37,401 nucleotides of DNA from Chlorobiales bacterium (GTDB taxonomy: Bacteria > Bacteroidota > Chlorobiia > Chlorobiales > JACMJS01). Below the pieces are notes generated by a model. That model was not told the origin of the DNA, did no database searches, and worked only from the letters and a program-made list of their open reading frames with translations. The translations under genes were made by a program, and so were the position numbers. Of the stretch, positions 9,654-33,904 are shown piece after piece. Location of the stretch: positions 1-37,401 of the forward strand of contig JACMJS010000079.1 of assembly GCA_014380515.1 (NCBI GenBank), given 5' to 3'. Positions within the stretch are counted from its first letter, which is position 1; each line of letters opens with the position of its first letter.

Positions 9654-9738
9654 GCTTTTTAAAAAGCGTGCTATAAACGATCCCCGCTTTAGTTGAGCTT
9701 GACGAAACGGGTTTCGCAAGGCGAGGTGTCCGCAGGAC

Positions 9739-9804
9739 GGGGCGGTTGGAACGAATGCAATTTCTCCAACCACCCCTGCGCTCCTCCTTATTCAAGGCGG
9801 GGAG
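9739..9804. repeat. Intergenic double palindrome, dispersed repeat
   Basis: GGGGCGGTTGGA (9739-9750) pairs with TCCAACCACCCC (9765-9776) with one mismatch. It is directly followed by CTGCG and a second imperfect palindrome, CTCCTCCTTATTCAAGGCGG plus GGAG (9781-9804). The CTGCG plus CTCC-TTATTCAA-GGAG part recurs at 23981-24006 and, shortened, at 26254-26273, so this is a repeat family. It lies within 10 nt of the helicase stop. Confidence 0.65.
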
Positions 9805-9813
9805 TTAAATCAG

Positions 9814-14272: not shown

Positions 14273-15367
14273 ATGCAAAAACTTTCCGAAGAAACGCTCC
14301 GGCAAATGCCAAAGGTGCTGCTGCACGAGCACTTGGACGGCGGCTTGCGTCCCGCTACCGTGATTGAACTCGCCAAAGATCAAGGCTACACCGCACTCCC
14401 CACCACCGACGCCACAGACCTCGCCGACTTTTTTTTCAAAGGTGCTAGCCGCGGCAGTCTGCCGGAGTATCTCGAAGGCTTCCGCCACACAACCGCCGTG
14501 ATGCAAACGCCCGAAGCCTTGGAGCGCGTCGCCTACGAATCGGTCGAAGACCTAATGCTTGACGGCGTGTGCTACGCCGAAATCCGGTTCTCGCCCGTCT
14601 TCCACACCGACAAAGGCATGCACTGGGAAGACATCGTGAAGGCCGTCCTCAAAGGCTTCGAGCAGGGCGAGAGTGAGTTCGGCACGAAAGTTCGTCTGAT
14701 CATCAGCGCGATGCGAAACATGAATTTGTCGGAGGACATGGCGCAACTAGCCATCAGTTTCCGCGACCGCGGCGTCGTTGGCTTCGACCTTGCGGGCGAA
14801 GAAGGCGGCTATCCGCCCAAGAAACACGTCGATGCGTTTCATTTTATTCAGCGCGAAAACTTCAACATCACCGTTCATGCGGGTGAAGCGTTCGGGAAGG
14901 AATCCATCTGGCAGGCGATTCAATGGTGCGGCGCACACCGCATCGGCCACGCCACGCGGCTCATCGAAGATATGGCGGTGCTCAACGGCGAGGTGATCAA
15001 GATGGGCACGCTCGCTCAGTATGTTTTAGACAAGCGCATCGCGCTCGAGATTTGTTTGTCCTCCAACATTCACACGGGCGCCGCGGAAAGTTTCGCCTTG
15101 CATCCGTTCTGGATTTTTCACAAATCAAAGTTCCGCACCACGCTCAACACCGACAACCGCCTGATGTCCAACACGACGATGACGAAAGAATACAAACTCG
15201 CGCATGAGTTTTACGGCCTCTCAATGGACGACCTCGAAAAAATTTCGATCAACAGCATGAAGAGCGCCTTCGTGCCCTACAGCGAACGCATCGAGATGAT
15301 TTACAACACCATCAAACCGCGCTTCGCCCTGTTGCGTGAGGAACTTTCGCTGCGCACCGTTTCCTGA
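14273..15367 (+). CDS. add: Adenosine deaminase
   Basis: 364 residues from the ATG at 14273. A TTG at 14252 is in frame but less likely. It is a metal-dependent amidohydrolase of the adenosine/AMP deaminase family, converting adenosine to inosine in purine salvage. Motifs in order: the zinc-ligand motif HEHLDGG near the start, HAGEA, IGHATRL, CLSSNIHTG and NTDNRLMSNTT; the last is typical of bacterial Add proteins and carries the catalytic Asp. The protein is full length and cytosolic. The stop is 10 nt before the first TPR histidine kinase, so the two are very probably cotranscribed. A link between adenosine level and that kinase's sensor is possible but unsupported. Confidence 0.93.
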   Translation: MQKLSEETLRQMPKVLLHEHLDGGLRPATVIELAKDQGYTALPTTDATDLADFFFKGASRGSLPEYLEGFRHTTAVMQTPEALERVAYESVEDLMLDGVCYAEIRFSPVFHTDKGMHWEDIVKAVLKGFEQGESEFGTKVRLIISAMRNMNLSEDMAQLAISFRDRGVVGFDLAGEEGGYPPKKHVDAFHFIQRENFNITVHAGEAFGKESIWQAIQWCGAHRIGHATRLIEDMAVLNGEVIKMGTLAQYVLDKRIALEICLSSNIHTGAAESFALHPFWIFHKSKFRTTLNTDNRLMSNTTMTKEYKLAHEFYGLSMDDLEKISINSMKSAFVPYSERIEMIYNTIKPRFALLREELSLRTVS

Positions 15368-15377
15368 GTTTCCGCCG

Positions 15378-17540
15378 ATGAGCGACATGATTCACAACCA
15401 CATCAACCTTATTGACGCCCTTGAAGCCGCACTGGACAAGGCCTCGGGACCGAACGCTCAAATTGCCGCCCGAAACAAACTCGCGTGGGAACTTCGGCGC
15501 AGCGATCCCGAGCGTTCGGTATCTCTGGCGTTGCAGTCGCTCGCGCAGACCGAAACCCTAGCCGATGATATTCTTGTCGCCGATGCCACCCGCGCGATTG
15601 CTTTCAACCATTCTTTGAAAGGCGATCTCTCCGAAGCCGTAAGATTGGCCACGGAAATAAAACAAATCTATGTGCAGCATGGCGACCACTATGGCGAGGC
15701 GTGGGCACTCTACATCCTCGGCTCCGTGAGCGAGAGGCAAAGCAATTATGAGGACGCCTTCAAACACTACGGGGAAAGTTTGAGCATTCAGCAGGCGATT
15801 AAAGACCGCGATGGCGAGGCAACCTCACTCATGGGCATTGCCACCGTTCATGCCCGCTCCGGTGAAGGTGAAAAAGGGCTTGATTATTACTATCGCAGTT
15901 TGCGGTTGCGCGAACAGTTGGATGATGTTCAGGGTCAAGGGCTTTCGTGGATGGGCGTCGGCATTGCGTGCTCGCAGATGGGCGATTACGCCGCCGCCCT
16001 CGATGCGTATCAAAAAAGTTTGAAGTTCATCAAGCAAACCAGCGACCGCCGAACCGAAGGTTTAATCTACATCAACATCGGCACCGTGCACGGGCGTCTC
16101 AATCAAGATGAAAACGCGCTCCGCTATTTTTCCGACGGCAAAAACATCTTCGACCGCTCCGGCAATAAACACGAGGCTGCACGGGCACTGCTCAACATGG
16201 GTATCGTTCACGCTCATCTGAAAGCATATCGGGAAGCGATTGCGGCGTTCGAAGGTAGCCTCGATGTGTTCAAAGCTACCGGCGACCGTGATGCACAAAG
16301 CGCGATATACAACTGTCTCGGCGATTTGAAGACCAGCGAAAAAGAGTATGATCAGGCAAAAGCCTTCTACGATCGCGCCCTCGACATCCGCACGGAGATC
16401 GGCAACAAACGCGGTCAGACGGAATCTTACAACAGTTTGGGTTTCCTGCTCTCAGCGCAAGATCGCCACGCCGAAGCCCGCGAACACTTTGAAAAAGCCA
16501 TAGAACTCGGCCTGCGTATCGGCATGAAAGATTTGGTACTCATTTCTTACGAACTCATCTCGCTCGCCTGCGAAAAGTTGGGCGATACCGCCGCCGCACT
16601 TTCGTATTACAAATCTTTTCACCGCCTCAAAGAAGAAATATTCAGCGAGCAAGCCGACCGGCGGATGAAAATTTTGATGGTTCAAGCGGGCGTCGAAAAG
16701 TCGCAAAAGGAAGCCGAACTCTACCGCGAAAAAATGGTGAGCCTCGCCGAAGCCAACATGATGCTCTACGAAGCGGGTCAACTCAAAACCGAACTGCTCT
16801 CGATAGCGGCGCACGATTTGAAAAATCCGTTGCAATCCATTCTCGGTTTCGCCGAACTGATTCGGGAAAACCTGACGGGCGCGAAAACTGCTACCGGGCA
16901 AGCCGGTACCGACATGCCGGTCGTAAACATGGCGACGCATATTACGGCGGCGTCGCAGCGGATGCTCGCGCTCATCAACGATTTACTGAGCGAGGCGTCG
17001 CTGGAAAGCCAGAGTTTGGAACTGCGTCAATCGCCGTTTGATTTAGTCGCAATGATTCGCAACGTGGCCGAAGCCGCCGCGCCGCAAGCGGGGCAGAAGT
17101 CGCAAACGCTGATTTTTGAAATGCCGGAAACCTTGATATTCACCGGCGACGCGGAACGGCTTCGGGAAGTCATTGAAAATCTCATCGGCAATGCGATCAA
17201 ATATTCGCCGGACGGCAAACGGATTTGGGTGAAAATTGAAAAAAGGATGAAGGATGAATCGGGAACGATGAAAAAAGAAAAAGAAGAAAATGAATTTCTC
17301 GAGTCATCCGTTATTCGCGTCAGCGTGCGCGACGAAGGACAGGGAATGAGTGCGGAAGATTTGAAAAAAGTCTTCGGCAAGTTTCAGCGGCTCAGTGCAA
17401 GGCCGACGGGCGGCGAATCGTCGACCGGCTTGGGACTTTCCATTGCCAAGCAACTGACCGAACTGCACGGCGGCACGCTCCGCGTAGAATCGGCGGGCGT
17501 GGGACTTGGCGCAACCTTCATCGCCGAACTCCCCGCCTGA
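15378..17540 (+). CDS. TPR-sensor histidine kinase 1 (cytosolic)
   Basis: 720 residues from the ATG at 15378. The first 420 residues are a series of TPR repeats (patterns such as YGEAWALYILGSVSERQ and EARALLNMGIVHAHL). A coiled linker leads to HisKA with His479 in AAHDLKNPLQS, then HATPase_c with N-box ENLIGNAIKYSPDG, G1 VRDEGQGM and G2 ESSTGLGLS. There is no signal peptide or membrane span, so the sensor is cytosolic and likely binds a peptide or protein. The signature FGKFQRLSARPTGGESSTG is shared with four other kinases in this window. An Arg/Lys/Glu-rich insertion (about 622-645) in the ATP-binding domain looks repeat-derived. There is no receiver domain and no adjacent regulator gene. 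It follows adenosine deaminase by 10 nt. Confidence 0.92.
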   Translation: MSDMIHNHINLIDALEAALDKASGPNAQIAARNKLAWELRRSDPERSVSLALQSLAQTETLADDILVADATRAIAFNHSLKGDLSEAVRLATEIKQIYVQHGDHYGEAWALYILGSVSERQSNYEDAFKHYGESLSIQQAIKDRDGEATSLMGIATVHARSGEGEKGLDYYYRSLRLREQLDDVQGQGLSWMGVGIACSQMGDYAAALDAYQKSLKFIKQTSDRRTEGLIYINIGTVHGRLNQDENALRYFSDGKNIFDRSGNKHEAARALLNMGIVHAHLKAYREAIAAFEGSLDVFKATGDRDAQSAIYNCLGDLKTSEKEYDQAKAFYDRALDIRTEIGNKRGQTESYNSLGFLLSAQDRHAEAREHFEKAIELGLRIGMKDLVLISYELISLACEKLGDTAAALSYYKSFHRLKEEIFSEQADRRMKILMVQAGVEKSQKEAELYREKMVSLAEANMMLYEAGQLKTELLSIAAHDLKNPLQSILGFAELIRENLTGAKTATGQAGTDMPVVNMATHITAASQRMLALINDLLSEASLESQSLELRQSPFDLVAMIRNVAEAAAPQAGQKSQTLIFEMPETLIFTGDAERLREVIENLIGNAIKYSPDGKRIWVKIEKRMKDESGTMKKEKEENEFLESSVIRVSVRDEGQGMSAEDLKKVFGKFQRLSARPTGGESSTGLGLSIAKQLTELHGGTLRVESAGVGLGATFIAELPA
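17241..17314. repeat. Repeat-derived insertion inside histidine kinase 1
   Basis: Within the ATP-binding domain the DNA reads AAAAGGATGAAGGATGAA, then a purine-rich run ATGAAAAAAGAAAA, ending in TCATCCGTTATTCG. It matches the insertion in the fifth kinase at 33466-33568 (shared ATGAAAAAAGAAAA and GAAGAAAATGAA), and its GGATGA/TCATCC ends resemble the intergenic repeat at 24036-24060. Confidence 0.5.
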
Positions 17541-17653: not shown

Positions 17654-19699
17654 ATGAATCTTCGATGGTTACCTGATTCCATATTTTCGGCGCGACCCGG
17701 AGCCGTGCGGCTGGTTGCACGCTCTGTGATACGCGGGGCGGCGTTTGGTTTGTGGCTCATCGCCGGTGTGCCGGTGATTGCCGCGGCGCAACAGTCTACA
17801 TCCGCCGACAGCCTGCTCCGGCGGCTTGCAGTGCTGACGCTGCCGGACACCGCGCGAGCCAATTTGCTCAACAACCTTGCCAGCGCGCTCGAATACCGTT
17901 CGCTCGATTCGTCGCTCCGCTATGCCCGCGAAGCGTTGCGGCTTTCCGACAGCCTGCGCTACGATAAAGGTCAGGCCTACGCGCGGCTCATTATCGGTTA
18001 CGATTATTATCAGCAAGGCCGCTACGATGTGGCGATGCAAGAATACGTCATCGCCAGCAATCTCTCCGAGCGGATCGGCTATACCTACATCGCCGCGTTC
18101 AGTCAGGCGGGCATCGGCAACATTTCCATGCAACAAAAAAAATTAAGCGACGCCCTTGCATATTATTTGACGGCGACCCGGCAGTTTCAGAAACTCGGCG
18201 ACCTCGACGGTCTCGAAACCATGGCGCTCAACATTGGCCGCATCTACCAGCAACAGAAAAAATTTGCCGAAGCCACCCGATACTTCGAACAAAGCGACAG
18301 CTTGGCCAAGATTTTAGGCGATCAAAGTGCCCGGTCATATGCCTTGCATTACATCGGGCTGACACTCGATGAACAGCAACAGTATCAAGCCGCGCTCACG
18401 TATCATTTGAACGCGCTCCGGCTCGCGCGGGCGGGCGGGGATAAACGCTATCTCATCACCGCGCTCATTACGCTCGGAGCGGCCTACGGCCAGCAAAAGA
18501 ATTATGCGGCGGCCATGCGTTATGCCTCGGAGGGATTGGCGAACGCCGAGACGAGCGGCTACGCGGGCGAACTCAAGGAAAGCTACCGCGTCCTTTATGA
18601 TCTGAACCAGCAGCAGGGAAACTTCAAAGCCGCGCTCGAATTTTATCAGCGATACACCGCCGCCAACGATTCGATTTTTTCCGACGAAAGCAACCGGCGC
18701 ACGCTTGAGTTACAAACGCGGTTTGAGACGCTTGCCAAAGAGCAGCAGATCGCCATTCTTCAAAAGTCAAATGAAGTGCAGTCCTTGGAGGGTGAGCGGC
18801 AGCGCAACGCACTCATCGGCGGTATTGCCTTCGCGGCGGCTTTGGCGTTGCTGTTCGCCAACCGCTACCGGCTCAAACGTCAAGTGGCTGATGCCCTGCG
18901 CGAAAAGAACGACGCGCTCACGCGGCTCAATCACGACCTCGCCGGCGCCAATCAACTCAAAACCGAACTGCTTTCCATCGCCGCACATGATTTGAAAAAT
19001 CCGCTGCAAAGCGTGATGGGGTTTTCCGAACTCATCCGCGAAAGCGAGCCGCCCGCATCCGCCGTCTCGGAGATGGCCGCCATGATTCGAACGTCGTCGG
19101 AGCGGATGCTGGCGATTATTTCCGATCTGTTGCAAACGGCGGCGATGGACTCGGGAAAATTAAATTTGAATCGCAGCCGCGTTGATCTGGCCGGTTTGGT
19201 GGAGGCTGCGGTGCGATACAACAGGCCGCAGGCCGCCAAGAAGTCGCAGCATCTCGACTTGTCGCTGGGCGCGGAGGATATGTCGGCCAGTGTTGATGCC
19301 GAGCGGATGCTCGAGGTGATTGACAATCTCATCAGCAACGCGATCAAATATACGCCGCAAGGCAAACGGGTTTGGGTGAGCGTAGCGCAGTTGCGACGCA
19401 CAGATGTTGGATTGCGCGTTCAAGAAGGAAAAAAACTTCAATCGGCAACCGGCGCGCCGCGCGCCGCAATTCGAATCTCCGTGAAAGATGAAGGGCAAGG
19501 ACTGACGGCGGAAGACATGACGAAAATCTTCGGCAAGTTTCAACGGCTCAGTGCAAGGCCGACGGCGGGCGAATCGTCGACCGGCTTGGGACTTTCCATC
19601 GTCAAGCAATTGGTTGAACTTCACGGCGGCAGCGTGCAGGCCGAGAGTGAAGGAAAAAATAAAGGCAGCACTTTCACGGTTGACCTGCCGAACGCTTAA
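17654..19699 (+). CDS. TPR-sensor histidine kinase 2 (periplasmic TPR, one TM)
   Basis: 681 residues. The N-terminus has a basic stretch followed by a signal sequence (GAAFGLWLIAGVPVIAAA, about 28-46). TPR repeats extend to about 340. A coiled segment follows, and one membrane span (about 384-402, LIGGIAFAAALALLFA). HisKA has His445 in AAHDLKNPLQS, and HATPase_c has ISNAIKYTPQG, VKDEGQGL and ESSTGLGLS. The TPR domain is therefore outside the cytoplasmic membrane, unlike its three neighbours: the same scaffold appears to look in the other direction. A 22-residue extra segment (about 577-600) sits in the ATP-binding domain where kinase 1 has its insertion, but with unrelated sequence. There is no receiver. 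It lies 28 nt upstream of kinase 3. Confidence 0.92.
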   Translation: MNLRWLPDSIFSARPGAVRLVARSVIRGAAFGLWLIAGVPVIAAAQQSTSADSLLRRLAVLTLPDTARANLLNNLASALEYRSLDSSLRYAREALRLSDSLRYDKGQAYARLIIGYDYYQQGRYDVAMQEYVIASNLSERIGYTYIAAFSQAGIGNISMQQKKLSDALAYYLTATRQFQKLGDLDGLETMALNIGRIYQQQKKFAEATRYFEQSDSLAKILGDQSARSYALHYIGLTLDEQQQYQAALTYHLNALRLARAGGDKRYLITALITLGAAYGQQKNYAAAMRYASEGLANAETSGYAGELKESYRVLYDLNQQQGNFKAALEFYQRYTAANDSIFSDESNRRTLELQTRFETLAKEQQIAILQKSNEVQSLEGERQRNALIGGIAFAAALALLFANRYRLKRQVADALREKNDALTRLNHDLAGANQLKTELLSIAAHDLKNPLQSVMGFSELIRESEPPASAVSEMAAMIRTSSERMLAIISDLLQTAAMDSGKLNLNRSRVDLAGLVEAAVRYNRPQAAKKSQHLDLSLGAEDMSASVDAERMLEVIDNLISNAIKYTPQGKRVWVSVAQLRRTDVGLRVQEGKKLQSATGAPRAAIRISVKDEGQGLTAEDMTKIFGKFQRLSARPTAGESSTGLGLSIVKQLVELHGGSVQAESEGKNKGSTFTVDLPNA

Positions 19700-19727: not shown

Positions 19728-21848
19728 ATGACTGTAAATACATCCGGCCTCGATGAAACGCTCGCATCCGCAGCGGGTTCAAGCGAAGCCAAACGGCTCA
19801 ACGATCAAGCCGCGGAACTGGCGCAGAACGATCCCTCGCGGGCACGCGCACTGGCCGAATCCGCCGAAGCCCTTGCGATCGAGTATCACAGCGTAGCCGC
19901 ACTCGCCCAAAGTTTGGCGACGCAAGCGTACTGCAATTATTTACTCTCCAACTACGAACACGCTTTATCGCAATCGTTTTTGGCGCTCTCCAGCTTTCAA
20001 TCGGTACGCGACGCGAAGGGCGAACTTTTCGTGCTCAAAAACATCGGCAACGTTTATCACCGCATCGGCGACTACAGCAAGTCGCTCCGCTTTCAGGAAC
20101 GCAGTTTAGACCTCGCCCGCCAATTGGGCGAGCGGCGCGAAGAAGCCGCTGCGCTCAACAACATCGGCGGCGTTTATATCTCGCTCTCCGATCACGCCGC
20201 CGCGCTCGAATATCTTTATGAATCGCTGACGCTCTTGCAGCGGCTCGGCGAACGCGCGCTTCAAGCCAGCACGCTCGGCAACTTGGGCGCAGTCTATGAA
20301 TATCTCGACGACGACCGCAAAGCCCTTGAGTGTTACGACGAAGGTCTTTCGCTGACGAGCCGCACCGGCACGACGCCCATCGAAGCCTTGCTCTTGCGGA
20401 ACAAAGCGAAAGTTTATGAGAAGCACGGCGACTACGAAGCCGCACTGTCGTTTTATCACCAGAGCCTCGATATCCGCCGCGCGATCGGCGATAAGCACGG
20501 CGAAGCAAGTTCCTTGCACGGCGTCGCGGGCGCCTATCTGAAACTGGGCGACTACGCGCAGGCCACGCATTTTTTCGGGCAGTCGCTTTCGCTGCGCTGT
20601 TTCATCGGCGACCGGATGGGCGAAGCCGAAGTGCTGCTCGACATCGGCAAACTGTGCCTCAATCAACCGCTGCTCGAACTGCCCAAAGAACTACTCATGC
20701 AATTGGCGCCGGGCAAAGCGGCCAAAGTTTCCGAATACTGTTTGCTGCGGTCGCTTGCGGGCGCGGAGGCGGCGGGCGTTAAGCGGACGCTTTATCAAGC
20801 GTCGCAATTGCTCGCGGAGTTTTATGAGCAGCAGGGCGATTACGGCAAAGCGATCATGTACCTGAAAAAATATCACGCCGCCGAGCGCGAAATTTTCAAC
20901 GACGAACAATCGCAGCGGACGCGCGCCCTTCGAAACACCTTCGATATTTCGCAGGCCAAAAAAGAATCGGAAATTTTCCAACTGCGCAACGAGAAACTCA
21001 CGAAAGCCAACGACGCGCTCGCCGAAGTCATCTATCAGTTGGAACGCTTGAAAGTTACCGCCGAAGCGCATCGCAAGGCGGCGGAAGACGCGAGCGCGTT
21101 CAAGTCGGAGTTTCTCGCCATCGCCGCTCACGATTTGCGCAACCCGCTTTCGGCCATCAACGGTTTCGCCGAACTGATCCGTGAATCCGAGAGCCTCGGT
21201 TCGGTTAAGAACATGGCGGAAATTATCGGACAGTCGTCGGGGCAAATGTTTTCGCTGATCAGTGATTTGCTCCGCACTGCGCAATTGGATGCGGGAAAGT
21301 TGGAACTGCGGAAGTCGCTGGTCAACTTGTCGCTGCTGGTGGAATATGCGGTGTCGCGGGTCGAACCGATGATTCAAAAAAAATCGCAGCGGATCAACTT
21401 AAGCGTCTCGCCGAACGTGCGGTTGCTCATTGACGAAGAGCGGATGCGCGAAGCGATTGACAACATCATCGGCAACGCGGTCAAGTATTCGCCGCAGGGC
21501 AAAACGATTTGGGTCAGTCTCGCGCGCGGCCACCGGTTCAATCCGCACACCGAAGCCGACGCCGAAAAGCTTTCCGTTGCCGCGCCCGAACTCACGCCCG
21601 AAGTGCAGCAGGTCGTCCGCATCGAGGTGCGCGATGAAGGACAGGGACTTGATCTGGACGATCTTAAAAAAGTCTTCGGCAAATTTCAGCGGCTCAGTTC
21701 GCGTCCGACGGGCGACGAGAGTTCGACCGGCTTGGGACTTTCCATCGTCAAGCAATTGGTCGAACTTCACGGCGGCAAAGTGTGGGCGGAGTCGCAAGGC
21801 AAAGACATGGGCTCCGTGTTCATCATCGAATTGCCGGTGTATGAATAG
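19728..21848 (+). CDS. TPR-sensor histidine kinase 3 (cytosolic)
   Basis: 706 residues without signal peptide or membrane span. At least seven TPR repeats fill residues 30-390 (for example NNIGGVYISLSDHAAALEYL and HGVAGAYLKLGDYAQATHFF). A coiled linker (LEFYEQQ..., AHRKAAEDASAFKSEF) leads to HisKA with His468 in AAHDLRNPLSA, followed by HATPase_c with IGNAVKYSPQG, VRDEGQGL and ESSTGLGLS. It is the most diverged member in the H-box (LRNPLSA rather than LKNPLQS). A 25-residue acidic insertion lies before the G1 box. No receiver or partner regulator is adjacent. It is probably cotranscribed with kinase 2 (28-nt gap). Confidence 0.92.
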   Translation: MTVNTSGLDETLASAAGSSEAKRLNDQAAELAQNDPSRARALAESAEALAIEYHSVAALAQSLATQAYCNYLLSNYEHALSQSFLALSSFQSVRDAKGELFVLKNIGNVYHRIGDYSKSLRFQERSLDLARQLGERREEAAALNNIGGVYISLSDHAAALEYLYESLTLLQRLGERALQASTLGNLGAVYEYLDDDRKALECYDEGLSLTSRTGTTPIEALLLRNKAKVYEKHGDYEAALSFYHQSLDIRRAIGDKHGEASSLHGVAGAYLKLGDYAQATHFFGQSLSLRCFIGDRMGEAEVLLDIGKLCLNQPLLELPKELLMQLAPGKAAKVSEYCLLRSLAGAEAAGVKRTLYQASQLLAEFYEQQGDYGKAIMYLKKYHAAEREIFNDEQSQRTRALRNTFDISQAKKESEIFQLRNEKLTKANDALAEVIYQLERLKVTAEAHRKAAEDASAFKSEFLAIAAHDLRNPLSAINGFAELIRESESLGSVKNMAEIIGQSSGQMFSLISDLLRTAQLDAGKLELRKSLVNLSLLVEYAVSRVEPMIQKKSQRINLSVSPNVRLLIDEERMREAIDNIIGNAVKYSPQGKTIWVSLARGHRFNPHTEADAEKLSVAAPELTPEVQQVVRIEVRDEGQGLDLDDLKKVFGKFQRLSSRPTGDESSTGLGLSIVKQLVELHGGKVWAESQGKDMGSVFIIELPVYE

Positions 21849-21981: not shown

Positions 21982-23973
21982 GTGCCCGATTTAAAATCGC
22001 CGCCGAAACTCTCTTCGGCTGTTCAGCAACTCCGCGAGAAACTCCGCACCTTGGAGCCAGGCAGCGAGCGCGCCGATGTGCTCAACCTGATCGCGGCGGA
22101 ACTCAAATACAGCGAACCGCTTCGCGCGCAAGACGCCGCCAAAGAATCCTACGCGATTTCAACCGCGCTCGGATACACCCGAGGCGCGGCCTACAGCCTC
22201 ATCAACAGCGGCTACGCGGAGTGGCGGCTCGGTTTGTTCGGCAGCGCGCTCACCAAATCGCTCGATGCCCTTTCACACTTTGAACAGACCGCCGATAAAT
22301 ATGGTGAGGCCGACGCGCTCAATACCATCGGCCTGATTAGCAATTCGCTCGGCGACGGCGAAAAGGCAATGCACTACTACGAACAGTCGCTGAAAATCCG
22401 TGAAGCCACCGGCGACCGGCAAGGCATGGCGGTTTGTCTCAACAACATCGGTGAGTTTCACCTCAGCAACGGCGACTATGCGGGCGCACTCGAGTGTTAT
22501 ACGCAAAGCCTGAAACTCAAGGAAGGCGACGGCGGCTGGGGACGGGCACGGGCGTTGAGCGGTCTCGGTCTCGTCTACCTGAAAATGGGCGACGCCGCCA
22601 ATTCGCTGCGTTTCTACACCGACGCGCTGCGGCTGCGCGAGGAGATCGGCGACGTCGCCGGTCAGGCCGCATCGCTCAACAGCCTTGCGACCGTCTATCA
22701 GCACGGACACGACCTTGCAGCGGCGGAAGAACATTACTTGCAAAGTTTGAAAGTGTGCGAAGGCGAAGACCTCCGCACCGAGTATGTAGAAGCGTTGCTC
22801 GGTTTGGGAATGCTGTTTACCGAGTCGCATAAAACCCAGCGGGCGTTGCAGTACTTGCATCAAGCGTTGGCCGTGCCCAAGTCGGCGGCGGGCACGGAAG
22901 AAAACGTCAAGGAACTTACCGCATATGTGCATGGCGCCTTGGCCGATGCCTACCGGCAGGCCGGAGATTATGCGAGCGCGTTGGAACACTTCGAACGCTA
23001 TCATACGCTGGAGAAAGAATTCTTTAACGACGAAAGCGCGCGCAAAACACGTTTGCTTCAACTGCGCTATGAAGCCGAGCGACTCGCCCGCGAAACCGAG
23101 CAGCGACGCACCGAAACGAATTTGCTTAAAACGAAAAACGAGGAACTGGCCGAAGCCTTGCGCGAAACCGAACGGCAACGCGCCGAAGCCGAATGGCAAC
23201 AAGCCGAGGCGGAACGTCAACAGGCCGAAGCCGAGCGTCAGCACCGCGAAGCGGAACGGATGCGCGGCCTTTCGGAAAGCGCAAGTCAACTCAAAACGGA
23301 ATTGCTCAACATCGCCGCACATGATTTGAAGAATCCGTTGCAATCGATTTTGGGATTTGCCGACTTGCTGCGCGAAACGATTGAACAGGAAGAAACCCAA
23401 AACCTGCCGCTCAAGGCGATGGCCGGATCGATCTTCACATCGTCGCGACGGATGCTTTCGCTGATCGATGGATTGCTTGAGGCCGCGACCGTCGAGAGCG
23501 ACCGGTTCGAAATTCATCCGATGCCGATGGACTTCGCCGCGTTGGTGCGCACGCTCGTCAGTTCGATGGAGCCGCTCGCGGAGCGCAAACAGCAATCGAT
23601 CATCCTCACCGCGCCCGAAAGCCTGATGTTGACCGCCGATGCCAAGTGGCTGATGGACGCCGCCGAAAATCTTTTGAGCAATGCGATCAAATATTCGCCG
23701 CCGGGCAAACGGATTTGGGTGGATGTACTTCGCAACGCAACGCAAGCCGAACTCCGCGTGCGCGACGAAGGGCCGGGACTCGGTGAAGACGATTTGAAAA
23801 AAGCCTTCGGCAAGTTTCAACGTCTTTCGGCAAGGCCGACGGGCGGCGAATCATCGACCGGCTTGGGACTTTCCATCGTCAAGCGGCTTGTAGAACTGCA
23901 CGGCGGCAAGGCATGGGCGGAATCGGACGGCAAAGAAAAAGGCGCGACGTTCGTGCTCACATTGCCGGTGTGA
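21982..23973 (+). CDS. TPR-sensor histidine kinase 4 (cytosolic)
   Basis: 663 residues, starting at GTG (21982): no upstream in-frame ATG exists and the next Met lies deep inside the TPR region. TPR repeats run from about 20 to 360 (LNTIGLISNSLGDGEKAMHY, LNSLATVYQHGHDL). A strong coiled coil follows, built from four 7-residue units (397-424). HisKA has His447 in AAHDLKNPLQS; HATPase_c has LSNAIKYSPPG, VRDEGPGL and ESSTGLGLS. It lacks the insertion before the G1 box that its three neighbours carry, so it may show the ancestral form. No membrane segment and no receiver. Last of the four tandem paralogs. Confidence 0.92.
   Translation: MPDLKSPPKLSSAVQQLREKLRTLEPGSERADVLNLIAAELKYSEPLRAQDAAKESYAISTALGYTRGAAYSLINSGYAEWRLGLFGSALTKSLDALSHFEQTADKYGEADALNTIGLISNSLGDGEKAMHYYEQSLKIREATGDRQGMAVCLNNIGEFHLSNGDYAGALECYTQSLKLKEGDGGWGRARALSGLGLVYLKMGDAANSLRFYTDALRLREEIGDVAGQAASLNSLATVYQHGHDLAAAEEHYLQSLKVCEGEDLRTEYVEALLGLGMLFTESHKTQRALQYLHQALAVPKSAAGTEENVKELTAYVHGALADAYRQAGDYASALEHFERYHTLEKEFFNDESARKTRLLQLRYEAERLARETEQRRTETNLLKTKNEELAEALRETERQRAEAEWQQAEAERQQAEAERQHREAERMRGLSESASQLKTELLNIAAHDLKNPLQSILGFADLLRETIEQEETQNLPLKAMAGSIFTSSRRMLSLIDGLLEAATVESDRFEIHPMPMDFAALVRTLVSSMEPLAERKQQSIILTAPESLMLTADAKWLMDAAENLLSNAIKYSPPGKRIWVDVLRNATQAELRVRDEGPGLGEDDLKKAFGKFQRLSARPTGGESSTGLGLSIVKRLVELHGGKAWAESDGKEKGATFVLTLPV
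23170..23253 (+). repeat. Four 21-bp repeats encoding a heptad coiled coil
   Basis: Four consecutive 21-nt units encode ERQRAEA, EWQQAEA, ERQQAEA and ERQHREA (residues 397-424 of kinase 4). Each is one coiled-coil heptad, so gain or loss of a unit would preserve both frame and helix phase between sensor and kinase core. Confidence 0.75.
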
Positions 23974-23984
23974 ACCCCTCTGCG

Positions 23985-24006
23985 CTCCCCTTTATTCAAA
24001 GGGGAG
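23985..24006. repeat. Intergenic palindrome, dispersed family member
   Basis: CTCCCCTTTATTCAAAGGGG plus AG, preceded by CTGCG, lies 11 nt after the stop of kinase 4. It is a more perfect copy of the element at 9777-9804. As an RNA hairpin it could protect or end the transcript, but there is no U-tract. Confidence 0.65.
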
Positions 24007-24035
24007 AGTGATTAAAGGTAAATCCGTTTGTCGGG

Positions 24036-24060
24036 CCTCATTCCTCATTCTTCATTTTCC
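24036..24060. repeat. Short direct repeat, CTCATTC type
   Basis: The run CCTCATTCCTCATTCTTCAT followed by TTTCC is, on the reverse strand, GGAAAATGAAGAATGAGGAA... It resembles the repeat-like inserts inside kinases 1 and 5. The remaining part of the 265-nt gap 23974-24238 holds the palindrome above and the promoter below. Confidence 0.45.
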
Positions 24061-26212: not shown

Positions 26213-26224
26213 CCCGAACCCTCT

Positions 26225-26360
26225 GTCCGCTTCGGGCGGACATCTCCCTTTAATCAAAGGGAGAAGTGGGTGAAGGCAATTTTCTTAACCTCGTTTTCTA
26301 CACCGCGCATTTTAACGCTGTCCCCTTTACCAAAGGGGACGTTCCGCTAGCAAGCGGGAC
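26225..26360. repeat. Cluster of four small palindromes
   Basis: GTCCGCTTCGGGCGGAC (26225-26241), CTCCCTTTAATCAAAGGGAG (26254-26273), GTCCCCTTTACCAAAGGGGA plus C (26320-26340), and the imperfect GTTCCGCTAGCAAGCGGGAC (26341-26360). The second and third share the CCC-TTT-AAA-GGG design of the repeats at 9781 and 23985. They sit downstream of the VWA gene and before its terminator. Confidence 0.65.
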
Positions 26361-26367
26361 AGAGGTT

Positions 26368-32112: not shown

Positions 32113-32199
32113 TTTGAAAAAGGCTTGCGGCAGCCCGTAAATAAAGGCGCGAACCGCAGGTATTTGCCCCGTCAAAAGATGAATCCGCGTCGCCGGTGC

Positions 32200-32207
32200 T
32201 ATATTTG
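32200..32207 (+). promoter_or_regulatory. -7 box of the 6-TM histidine kinase gene
   Basis: TATATTTG matches TAnnTTTG exactly, with no good -33 element. It would put the transcription start near 32214, which rules out the GTG at 32196 as the translation start and supports the ATG at 32253. Confidence 0.45.
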
Positions 32208-32252
32208 GCTCAGAGATTTAGTGAACACTTGAACGGCTTCCCCCAAGAACAG

Positions 32253-33842
32253 ATGATTGACACCGTGTTTCAACGCTTGCAGCAATCGTGGCGGCGGGCG
32301 ACGCTTGCGTCGCTCGAAGCTTCCTACCGCGCGGGTTTTCTGGCGGAACTGGCCGTGAGCAATCTGGCTCGCGGCCGGGTGTTTTCGTTGTTGCTCGCCC
32401 TGCTGCACCTCCCGCTCGTCTATCTCGATCTTCAGCGCGTTAATCCCTCGCAAGGCTACACGTATCTTTTTTATATGCACCTTGCCGTGATCGGCGGGTG
32501 CGCGGTGCTCGCCGCACTGACATGGCTCGCAAGGCCGAAGTCCGTCAAGGAAATAACGGCGTGGCATCAAACGCTCGGCGTACTTTGCGGCGCGGTTTTA
32601 CTTTTATGGACGGCGGGCGTTTCCATCGTCGATCAATTCATTCACGGCGAAATTACGGTCTACATCATCGGCGCATTCGGCATTGCGATTGCATTTCTCT
32701 ACCGCACACGCACCAGTTTCATACTCTACTTCGTTTCGTATCTCGTGCTCATTGTTGGGTTGATGCAAGTGCAAGCCGACCCTGATAAACTGACCGGCAA
32801 CCTCACCAACGCCACCGCACTTGCGGTGCTTGCTTTTATTCTTTCGCGCGTGGTATTTGTCGGACAAATGCAAAGTTACTATACCCGCAAGCGCGAAGAG
32901 GATTTGCGCATCGTCGTCGAAGAACAGGCGATGCACTTGCTCCGCGAAAACGAACGCGCCGAAATCGCGCTAAAAAAATCGGGACAGTTGAACGACGATC
33001 TTGAAGCGAGCAATCTTGCCCTGCGTGAAGCCAACGAATTGAAATCCGAACTGCTCTCCATCGCCGCGCACGATTTAAAGAATCCGTTGCAAACCATCAT
33101 GGGCTTTGCTGAACTCTTGATCTCCGAACCCGGCGCGTCGTCCGCGACACGCAAGAAACTCGGCGTCATTTCGGAATCATCGAACCGGATGCTTTCGCTG
33201 ATCAACGAACTGCTGATGAACTCCGCCCTCGACAGCGGTAAAATCGAACTCAACAAATCGGAAATTTATCTTGAGCGGTTGGTCGGATTCATCGCGCTGG
33301 GGCAAGAGCAACTCGCGTCGCGCAAGAATCAAAAAATTATTCTTCAGGCCGATAACGCCTGCATGGTTCATGGCGACGAAAGCCGTCTCCGCGAAGTCAT
33401 TGAAAATCTTGTGAGCAACGCGATCAAGTATTCGCCGCACGGTAAAACGATTTGGGTCAAGGTTGAAAAAGGGATGAGGGATGCGATTGAGCCTGCCGAA
33501 ATGAATTTCGGGGGAAGGATGAAAAAAGAAAATGAAGAAAATGAACTTCATTCTTCATCCTTTATTCGCGTGAGCGTGCGCGATGAAGGCCCCGGGCTGA
33601 CGGACTTGGACAAGCAAAAAATCTTCGGCAAGTTTCAACGCCTCTCGCCGCGTCCGACGGGCGGCGAAAGTTCATCAGGACTTGGCCTCGCCATCGTCAA
33701 GCAATTGGTCGACTTGCACGGCGGCCATGTCCGCGTCGAAAGCGAGTGGGGCAAAGGCTGCACCTTCATCGTCGATCTGCCCGCACTGCGTCCCCTCATC
33801 GCCGCCGAAACCGCGAAGCAATCCGCATCGCCCGCCGCATAA
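32253..33842 (+). CDS. Histidine kinase 5 with six-TM sensor
   Basis: 529 residues from the ATG at 32253 (a GTG at 32196 overlaps the likely promoter). Six hydrophobic spans lie between about 40 and 210 (for example FSLLLALLHLPLVYLDL, LGVLCGAVLLLWTAGVSIV). A coiled linker follows, then HisKA with His273 in AAHDLKNPLQT, and HATPase_c with VSNAIKYSPHG, VRDEGPGL and ESSSGLGLA. The catalytic core is the same family as the four TPR kinases at 15378-23973, but the sensor is a membrane bundle. A 27-residue extra segment in the ATP-binding domain (about 405-438) shares sequence with that of kinase 1. No receiver domain or adjacent regulator. A different N-terminus on the same core indicates domain shuffling. 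Confidence 0.9.
   Translation: MIDTVFQRLQQSWRRATLASLEASYRAGFLAELAVSNLARGRVFSLLLALLHLPLVYLDLQRVNPSQGYTYLFYMHLAVIGGCAVLAALTWLARPKSVKEITAWHQTLGVLCGAVLLLWTAGVSIVDQFIHGEITVYIIGAFGIAIAFLYRTRTSFILYFVSYLVLIVGLMQVQADPDKLTGNLTNATALAVLAFILSRVVFVGQMQSYYTRKREEDLRIVVEEQAMHLLRENERAEIALKKSGQLNDDLEASNLALREANELKSELLSIAAHDLKNPLQTIMGFAELLISEPGASSATRKKLGVISESSNRMLSLINELLMNSALDSGKIELNKSEIYLERLVGFIALGQEQLASRKNQKIILQADNACMVHGDESRLREVIENLVSNAIKYSPHGKTIWVKVEKGMRDAIEPAEMNFGGRMKKENEENELHSSSFIRVSVRDEGPGLTDLDKQKIFGKFQRLSPRPTGGESSSGLGLAIVKQLVDLHGGHVRVESEWGKGCTFIVDLPALRPLIAAETAKQSASPAA
33466..33568. repeat. Repeat-derived insertion inside histidine kinase 5
   Basis: AAAAAGGGATGAGGGATG at the left and TTCATTCTTCATCCTTT at the right form an imperfect inverted repeat around a purine-rich run containing ATGAAAAAAGAAAATGAAGA. 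All is in frame within the ATP-binding domain. It is homologous to the segment at 17241-17314. Confidence 0.5.
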
Positions 33843-33904
33843 CTAACTCCCCCTCGCCCCCTCATCCGAAATTTATTTCGGCAAGCTCAATAGAGGGAAT
33901 GTAT

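Follow-up and report, generated by a model that had tools for sequence, protein, structure and literature searches.

Probable in-frame gain of nested palindromic repeats at one loop of three paralogous histidine kinases in a Chlorobiales genome

Short palindromic repeats, nested one within another in two of the cases, were quite probably gained in frame at the turn preceding the G1 box of three paralogous histidine kinases, K1, K5 and a kinase on contig C382 (hereafter C382), in an uncultured relative of the green sulfur bacteria, the order of which is taken as Chlorobiales. The window, i.e. the whole stretch of 37,401 nucleotides that was analysed, is contig C126 of a draft genome of 3.57 Mb in 420 contigs (97% complete). 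Its relevant features are as follows.

15336..17540, + strand: kinase 1 (K1), TPR repeats, HisKA and HATPase_c (translation; Pfam)
17241..17316, + strand: K1 loop insert, a GGATGA-type palindrome with arms at about 17245-17265 and 17296-17316 (hairpin z; K5 match)
17654..19699, + strand: kinase 2 (K2), long loop without repeat, control (L015; loop fold z -0.58)
19728..21848, + strand: kinase 3 (K3), long loop without repeat, control (L016; loop fold z 0.94)
21982..23973, + strand: kinase 4 (K4), short loop, uninserted state (alignment; Pfam)
32196..33842, + strand: kinase 5 (K5), HisKA and HATPase_c (translation; Pfam)
33464..33568, + strand: K5 loop insert, outer arms at 33464-33479 and 33553-33568, inner hairpin at 33531-33552, nested module Y
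33488..33511, + strand: module Y in the K5 insert (TGAGCCTGCCGAAATGAATTTCGG), in frame (exact module match)
33866..33889, - strand: module Y, intergenic copy just 3' of K5, in opposite orientation

The kinase assignments have the support of Pfam matches, both for K1 (PF02518, E 3.6e-25; PF00512, E 3.4e-11; TPR models also match) and for K5 (PF02518, E 9.5e-27; PF00512, E 1.3e-14). A protein search of the same genome gave 24 matching stretches, from which 16 kinases were aligned, a weaker one (L027, 36% identity) being omitted; the loop between the strand containing IWV and the G1 box is long in nine of the 16 and short in seven. Recounting from the W to the G1 box reproduced the lengths given in a sequence-only reading of this DNA, i.e. 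34, 37, 40, 15, and 42 residues for kinases 1 to 5. That reading had also described repeat-like inserts, beginning with GGATGA-type units and ending in TCATCC, at 17241-17314 and 33466-33568, and these sequences are as described; translated in frame, the K1 insert reads KRMKDESGTMKKEKEENEFLESSV. In a whole-genome search the K1 and K5 inserts, previously noted as similar, matched with 84% identity over 58 nt (E 8.5e-12), so the likeness is not due to chance. The proposal of an insert in two paralogs is therefore correct as to K1 and K5, both of which are real, but its count is short, a third insert being present in C382, which has a composite insert in common with K5 (90% identity over 80 nt).

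All three inserts fold as long hairpins, with z -3.70 for K1 (none of 200 shuffles as good), -4.08 for K5 (one of 200), and -3.24 for C382; extending the windows slightly, into the flanking strands, weakens the signal (K1, -2.6/-2.5; K5, -3.2/-3.1). The K5 and C382 inserts are composite, in that a separate palindrome, module Y, is nested in frame inside the GGATGA palindrome; module Y is missing from the K1 insert. In K2 and K3 the loop is long only, with no repeat signature by loop folding or codon alignment, and in the kinases on C100 and C41 it does not form a palindrome (z 0.35 and -0.68). The C41 loop was considered as a second repeat, of TGCGAAT type, and rejected, there being no good copy elsewhere. 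At the gathering threshold, Rfam assigned no family to the inserts, its matches being limited to tRNAs and a cobalamin riboswitch.

Copies of the element were sought elsewhere in the genome, as the earlier reading had suggested, and are present, including, as module X, in a second gene (see below). The 24-nt pattern of module Y, allowing up to two mismatches, has 26 matches in the genome and none in reversed controls, and a 21-nt part of it, allowing up to three, occurs at 18 places (reversed control, 0). The K5 copy is identical over 27 of 27 nt to an intergenic copy on contig C69 (E 3.4e-7), and the copies that were inspected are mostly intergenic, typically enclosed by a larger palindrome, CCCCCTTTGA[Y]ATAAAGGGGG. 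The flanks of Y pair with each other (stem score at least 6) in 11 of 20 distinct copies, compared with 2.3% of 5,000 random intergenic places; thus Y is often located in the loops of other palindromes. Palindromes with the GGATGA architecture fill three tRNA spacers (z -3.5, -2.8, and -2.6), their tie to the kinase inserts being one of architecture and weak by alignment (E 0.3-4). Clusters of GGATGA type are rare, four having been found in 755 kb, compared with zero or one in each of five simulations, with the qualification that two of the stretches scanned were chosen because they contained hits and that one of the four clusters is chance-like. A further pattern, GGATGANGGATGA, gave 39 matches compared with one in its reversed control; it was dropped as evidence for two reasons, namely that the reversed pattern, which includes TAG, is itself depleted in genes and that many matches fall in long open frames. 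The run of CTCATTC at 24036-24060, comprising three CCTCATT heptads between K4 and the next gene, had been likened to the inserts; this kinship is not supported, the run being a single arm with no paired partner that was missed by the word-cluster scan.

The manner in which the three kinases came to share their inserts was addressed by aligning the nine long-loop kinases codon by codon and comparing loop and flank identity over all 36 pairs (p values uncorrected for multiple tests). The loops are more alike than the flanks in only three pairs, i.e. those among K1, K5, and C382: K5/C382, 84/99 (0.85) in the loop compared with 372/645 (0.58) in the flanks (p 5e-8); K5/K1, 59/75 (0.79) and 401/648 (0.62) (p 0.002); and K1/C382, 52/75 (0.69) and 403/645 (0.62), which alone is not significant (p 0.15). 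Codon agreement, counted at identical residues with Met and Trp excluded, follows the same pattern, with identical codons at 21/23 loop compared with 61/108 flank positions for K5/C382 (p 0.001), 13/13 compared with 68/119 for K5/K1 (p 0.001), and 11/12 compared with 70/121 for K1/C382 (p 0.018). The loops are thus closer than the flanks even at synonymous positions, which argues that the sharing is recent and occurred at the level of DNA, because recent DNA sharing would give such codon agreement and selection on the peptide would not.

A variant of this explanation, rather than an exclusive rival to it, is that only the loop was converted from whichever kinase first acquired the repeat, the palindromes serving as the guiding homology. 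Such conversion is plausible, if short of probable. The entire composite is common to K5 and C382, so that separate arrivals are not required; against this, there is no converted tract in the adjoining flanks, the near-flank identity of K5 and C382 (0.70) lying inside the range of other pairs, and conversion would still require an initial in-frame insertion. The earlier suggestion that a repeat entered one kinase and was then copied accordingly stands as to the in-frame entry of repeat DNA; as to what followed, copying between the kinases and separate arrivals are both possible, the tree setting the three kinases apart and a single clade not being rejected (p-AU 0.268).

By contrast, it is very unlikely that the three kinases simply inherited the insert from an ancestor that they share, with selection on the peptide maintaining it. 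A forced clade of K1, K5, and C382 was not rejected (p-AU 0.268; 0.17 for K5 with C382), but the flank DNA is 58-62% identical compared with 69-85% for the loops, the synonymous agreement is in the loops and not the flanks, and the loop-free tree sets the three kinases in three places, K1 with K4, C382 with the C41 kinase, and K5 with the kinases C100/C391a, with weak to moderate support. Convergence of low-complexity sequence, in which replication slippage generates Lys/Glu-rich linkers whose AAR, GAR, and ATG codons mimic a repeat, is very unlikely. The K1 and K5 loops do encode MKKEKEENE-type stretches and carry small tandem units; the 84-90% identity over 58-80 nt, the excess of codon identity over the flanks, the pairing of arms beyond that of dinucleotide shuffles, and the exact 27-nt copy of an intergenic palindrome largely refute this proposal for K5 and C382. 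Finally, although repeats provoke misjoins and the draft is in 420 contigs, an assembly or binning error is scarcely credible: the inserts of about 75-150 nt preserve the reading frame of all three genes, which lie on two contigs, the kinase motifs on both sides are intact, and ordinary reads are in general long enough to span repeats this short.

In the preferred explanation, i.e. in-frame gain of nested palindromic repeats, the elements would have moved or been copied in the form of DNA hairpins, whether through strand switching, recombination between copies, or some transposase, and the survivors would be only those copies that kept the frame in a tolerant surface loop. Were this so, the insert peptide would probably be near neutral rather than functional. 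The Y1-transposase model (PF01797) has no match in this genome (97% complete) and is present in five of 14 control genomes, so no carrier enzyme can be named.

An independent second case of a palindrome in a gene is provided by module X, a 32-nt element of two adjacent hairpins that interrupts, without loss of frame, a UbiA-family gene on contig C123 (PF01040, E 2.1e-20). With its flanks as a query, X matched the genome at 13 further sites with E up to 1, mostly spacers. All seven relatives compared (seven genomes) are shorter by 9-14 residues at this site, and would be the nearest available equivalent of an empty site. The insert region of the UbiA-like gene folds weakly (z -1.80), and the flanks of X do not pair (none of seven at a stem score of at least 6), so that nesting in the loops of other hairpins is counted for Y only. 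A census of seven palindrome families over 121 stretches (1,162,277 bases, partly selected for hits and without the C382 kinase) gave 95 seed copies outside and 21 inside crude open-reading-frame calls. Just two of the latter, Y in K5 and X in the UbiA-like gene, are located over 300 nt away from each end of the gene; the others, which are nearer the ends of calls or in small calls, may lie in wrongly called genes.

The K5 catalytic region was modelled with AlphaFold2 (mean pLDDT 88.3; most of the domain above 85), the top fold matches of the model being histidine kinases such as HK853. The loop (residues 149-175, pLDDT about 50) is predicted to be a disordered turn that joins two strands of the HATPase domain (residues 139-148 and 176-184) and immediately precedes the G1 box. 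In kinases elsewhere the span at this position is mostly 33 residues; long loops are frequent in Chlorobiales and also occur here and there in Kapabacteria and Ignavibacteria. Since long loops are already present in relatives, the site is old and predates the repeats; the repeat content is new, because module Y (24-nt pattern, up to two mismatches) is absent from the 97 other genomes of the class. The alternative that the insert is an old, conserved part of the protein is thus correct for its length, which is old in the order, and not for its content. Among the 40 genomes of relatives searched, none of which is from the same family, an empty orthologous kinase site was not found.

The possibility that this surface loop is an insertion hot spot was examined by folding 51 distinct kinase loops spanning at least 40 residues, with 204 windows taken from these open frames as controls. 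A z below -2.5 was obtained for six loops, compared with two controls (Fisher p 0.001), and five loops and no controls are below -3. The six are those of K5, C382, L050, L056, L041, and L198, the last four being from other genomes; K1, at -2.48, falls just outside. Without the three loops of the present genome, the comparison is 4/48 with 2/204 (p 0.013). Palindromic DNA at the kinase loop in other genera suggests a tolerant landing site. As a hot spot, the loop has evidence in its favour that is suggestive and short of proof, namely the predicted disorder and the recurrence of palindromes. The broader proposal, that palindromes have landed again and again at the pre-G1 turn of the HATPase domain across Chlorobiota kinases, with older inserts decaying into ordinary linker, is put forward tentatively and with some doubt; if true, selfish hairpins would have repeatedly diversified one surface loop of a signalling family. 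The loops L050, L056, and L041, from three relatives, form strong hairpins whose sequences are not visibly akin to the repeats of the present genome.

By analogy, the closest precedent would be the Rickettsia palindromic elements, which, according to PMC3767692 and PMC10969869, are palindromes of roughly 100-150 bp found in frame inside genes, and which, according to PMC3767692, encode segments in solvent-exposed areas. The kinase inserts resemble them as hairpin-forming palindromes (z -3.2 to -4.1) and in lying in frame within otherwise intact genes, as does the UbiA-like insert. As to exposure, the K5 segment is a low-confidence turn between two strands in the model, and may be exposed. The kinase inserts differ in that the host is of the Chlorobiota and not the Rickettsiales, in being composite, in that the same turn is hit in three paralogs, and, as far as Rfam indicates, in sequence. 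REPs and bacterial interspersed mosaic elements, REPs being treated in PMC3733652 and PMC2817692, are likewise intergenic palindromes of 20-40 nt (Y, 24 nt; X, 32 nt), also found in tandem; unlike in REP/RAYT systems, the present genome has no match to a Y1/RAYT-type transposase and some copies are inside genes. The double-hairpin and repetitive hairpin-forming elements of fungal and sponge mitochondria, which occur in spacers and genes according to PMC2800124, are similar in being very short hairpins in such places, X being a double hairpin; the genome here is bacterial, and the likeness is one of description. Coxiella QMITE1 and ERIC are described in PMC10969869 as small repeats, non-autonomous, through which genes gain peptide sequence. 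The likeness to such in-frame MITE fusions lies in this addition of peptide; neither a terminal inverted repeat plus target-site duplication nor a parent IS was identified for the present inserts.

Palindromic inserts that keep the reading frame have been described mainly in Rickettsiales, and the present cases are from another phylum; no report of such repeats in Chlorobiota was found in the open-licence literature searched. Several inserts occur in one paralogous family and at the same structural position, and related copies stand between genes of the same genome, a combination that makes it testable whether small repeats seed new protein loops. A further question is whether loops seeded in this way later turn into ordinary sequence.

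Several other observations concern the repeats elsewhere in the genome. A variant of Y, TGAGCTTGACGAAATAAATTTCGT, occurs in tandem, in two to three copies 23 nt apart, at L268 6956-7106, C194 5136-5205, C374 7045-7091, and C414 331-377, the C374 pair being enclosed by a larger palindrome. Nested palindromes are also present at C407 1975-2013 (L232/L258), at C420 26057 (L231), and at L257; in these, a Y-type hairpin holds part of module X, or a look-alike, in its loop and is itself in the loop of a larger hairpin. A small open frame of 120 codons (L070 2609-2968, contig C5) holds both X and Y. Several other intergenic palindrome families are abundant, among them GTAGGGGCGAGGCATGCCTCGCCCCTAC, CTCCCCTTTGTTAAAGGGGAG, and TGTCATTCTGAGC...GAATGACA, the first of which starts with GTAG, as does a REP superfamily that appears in the title of PMC3733652. 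Examples of such families within the window are at 1877-1980, 9693-9806, 23970-24017, and 26216-26367.
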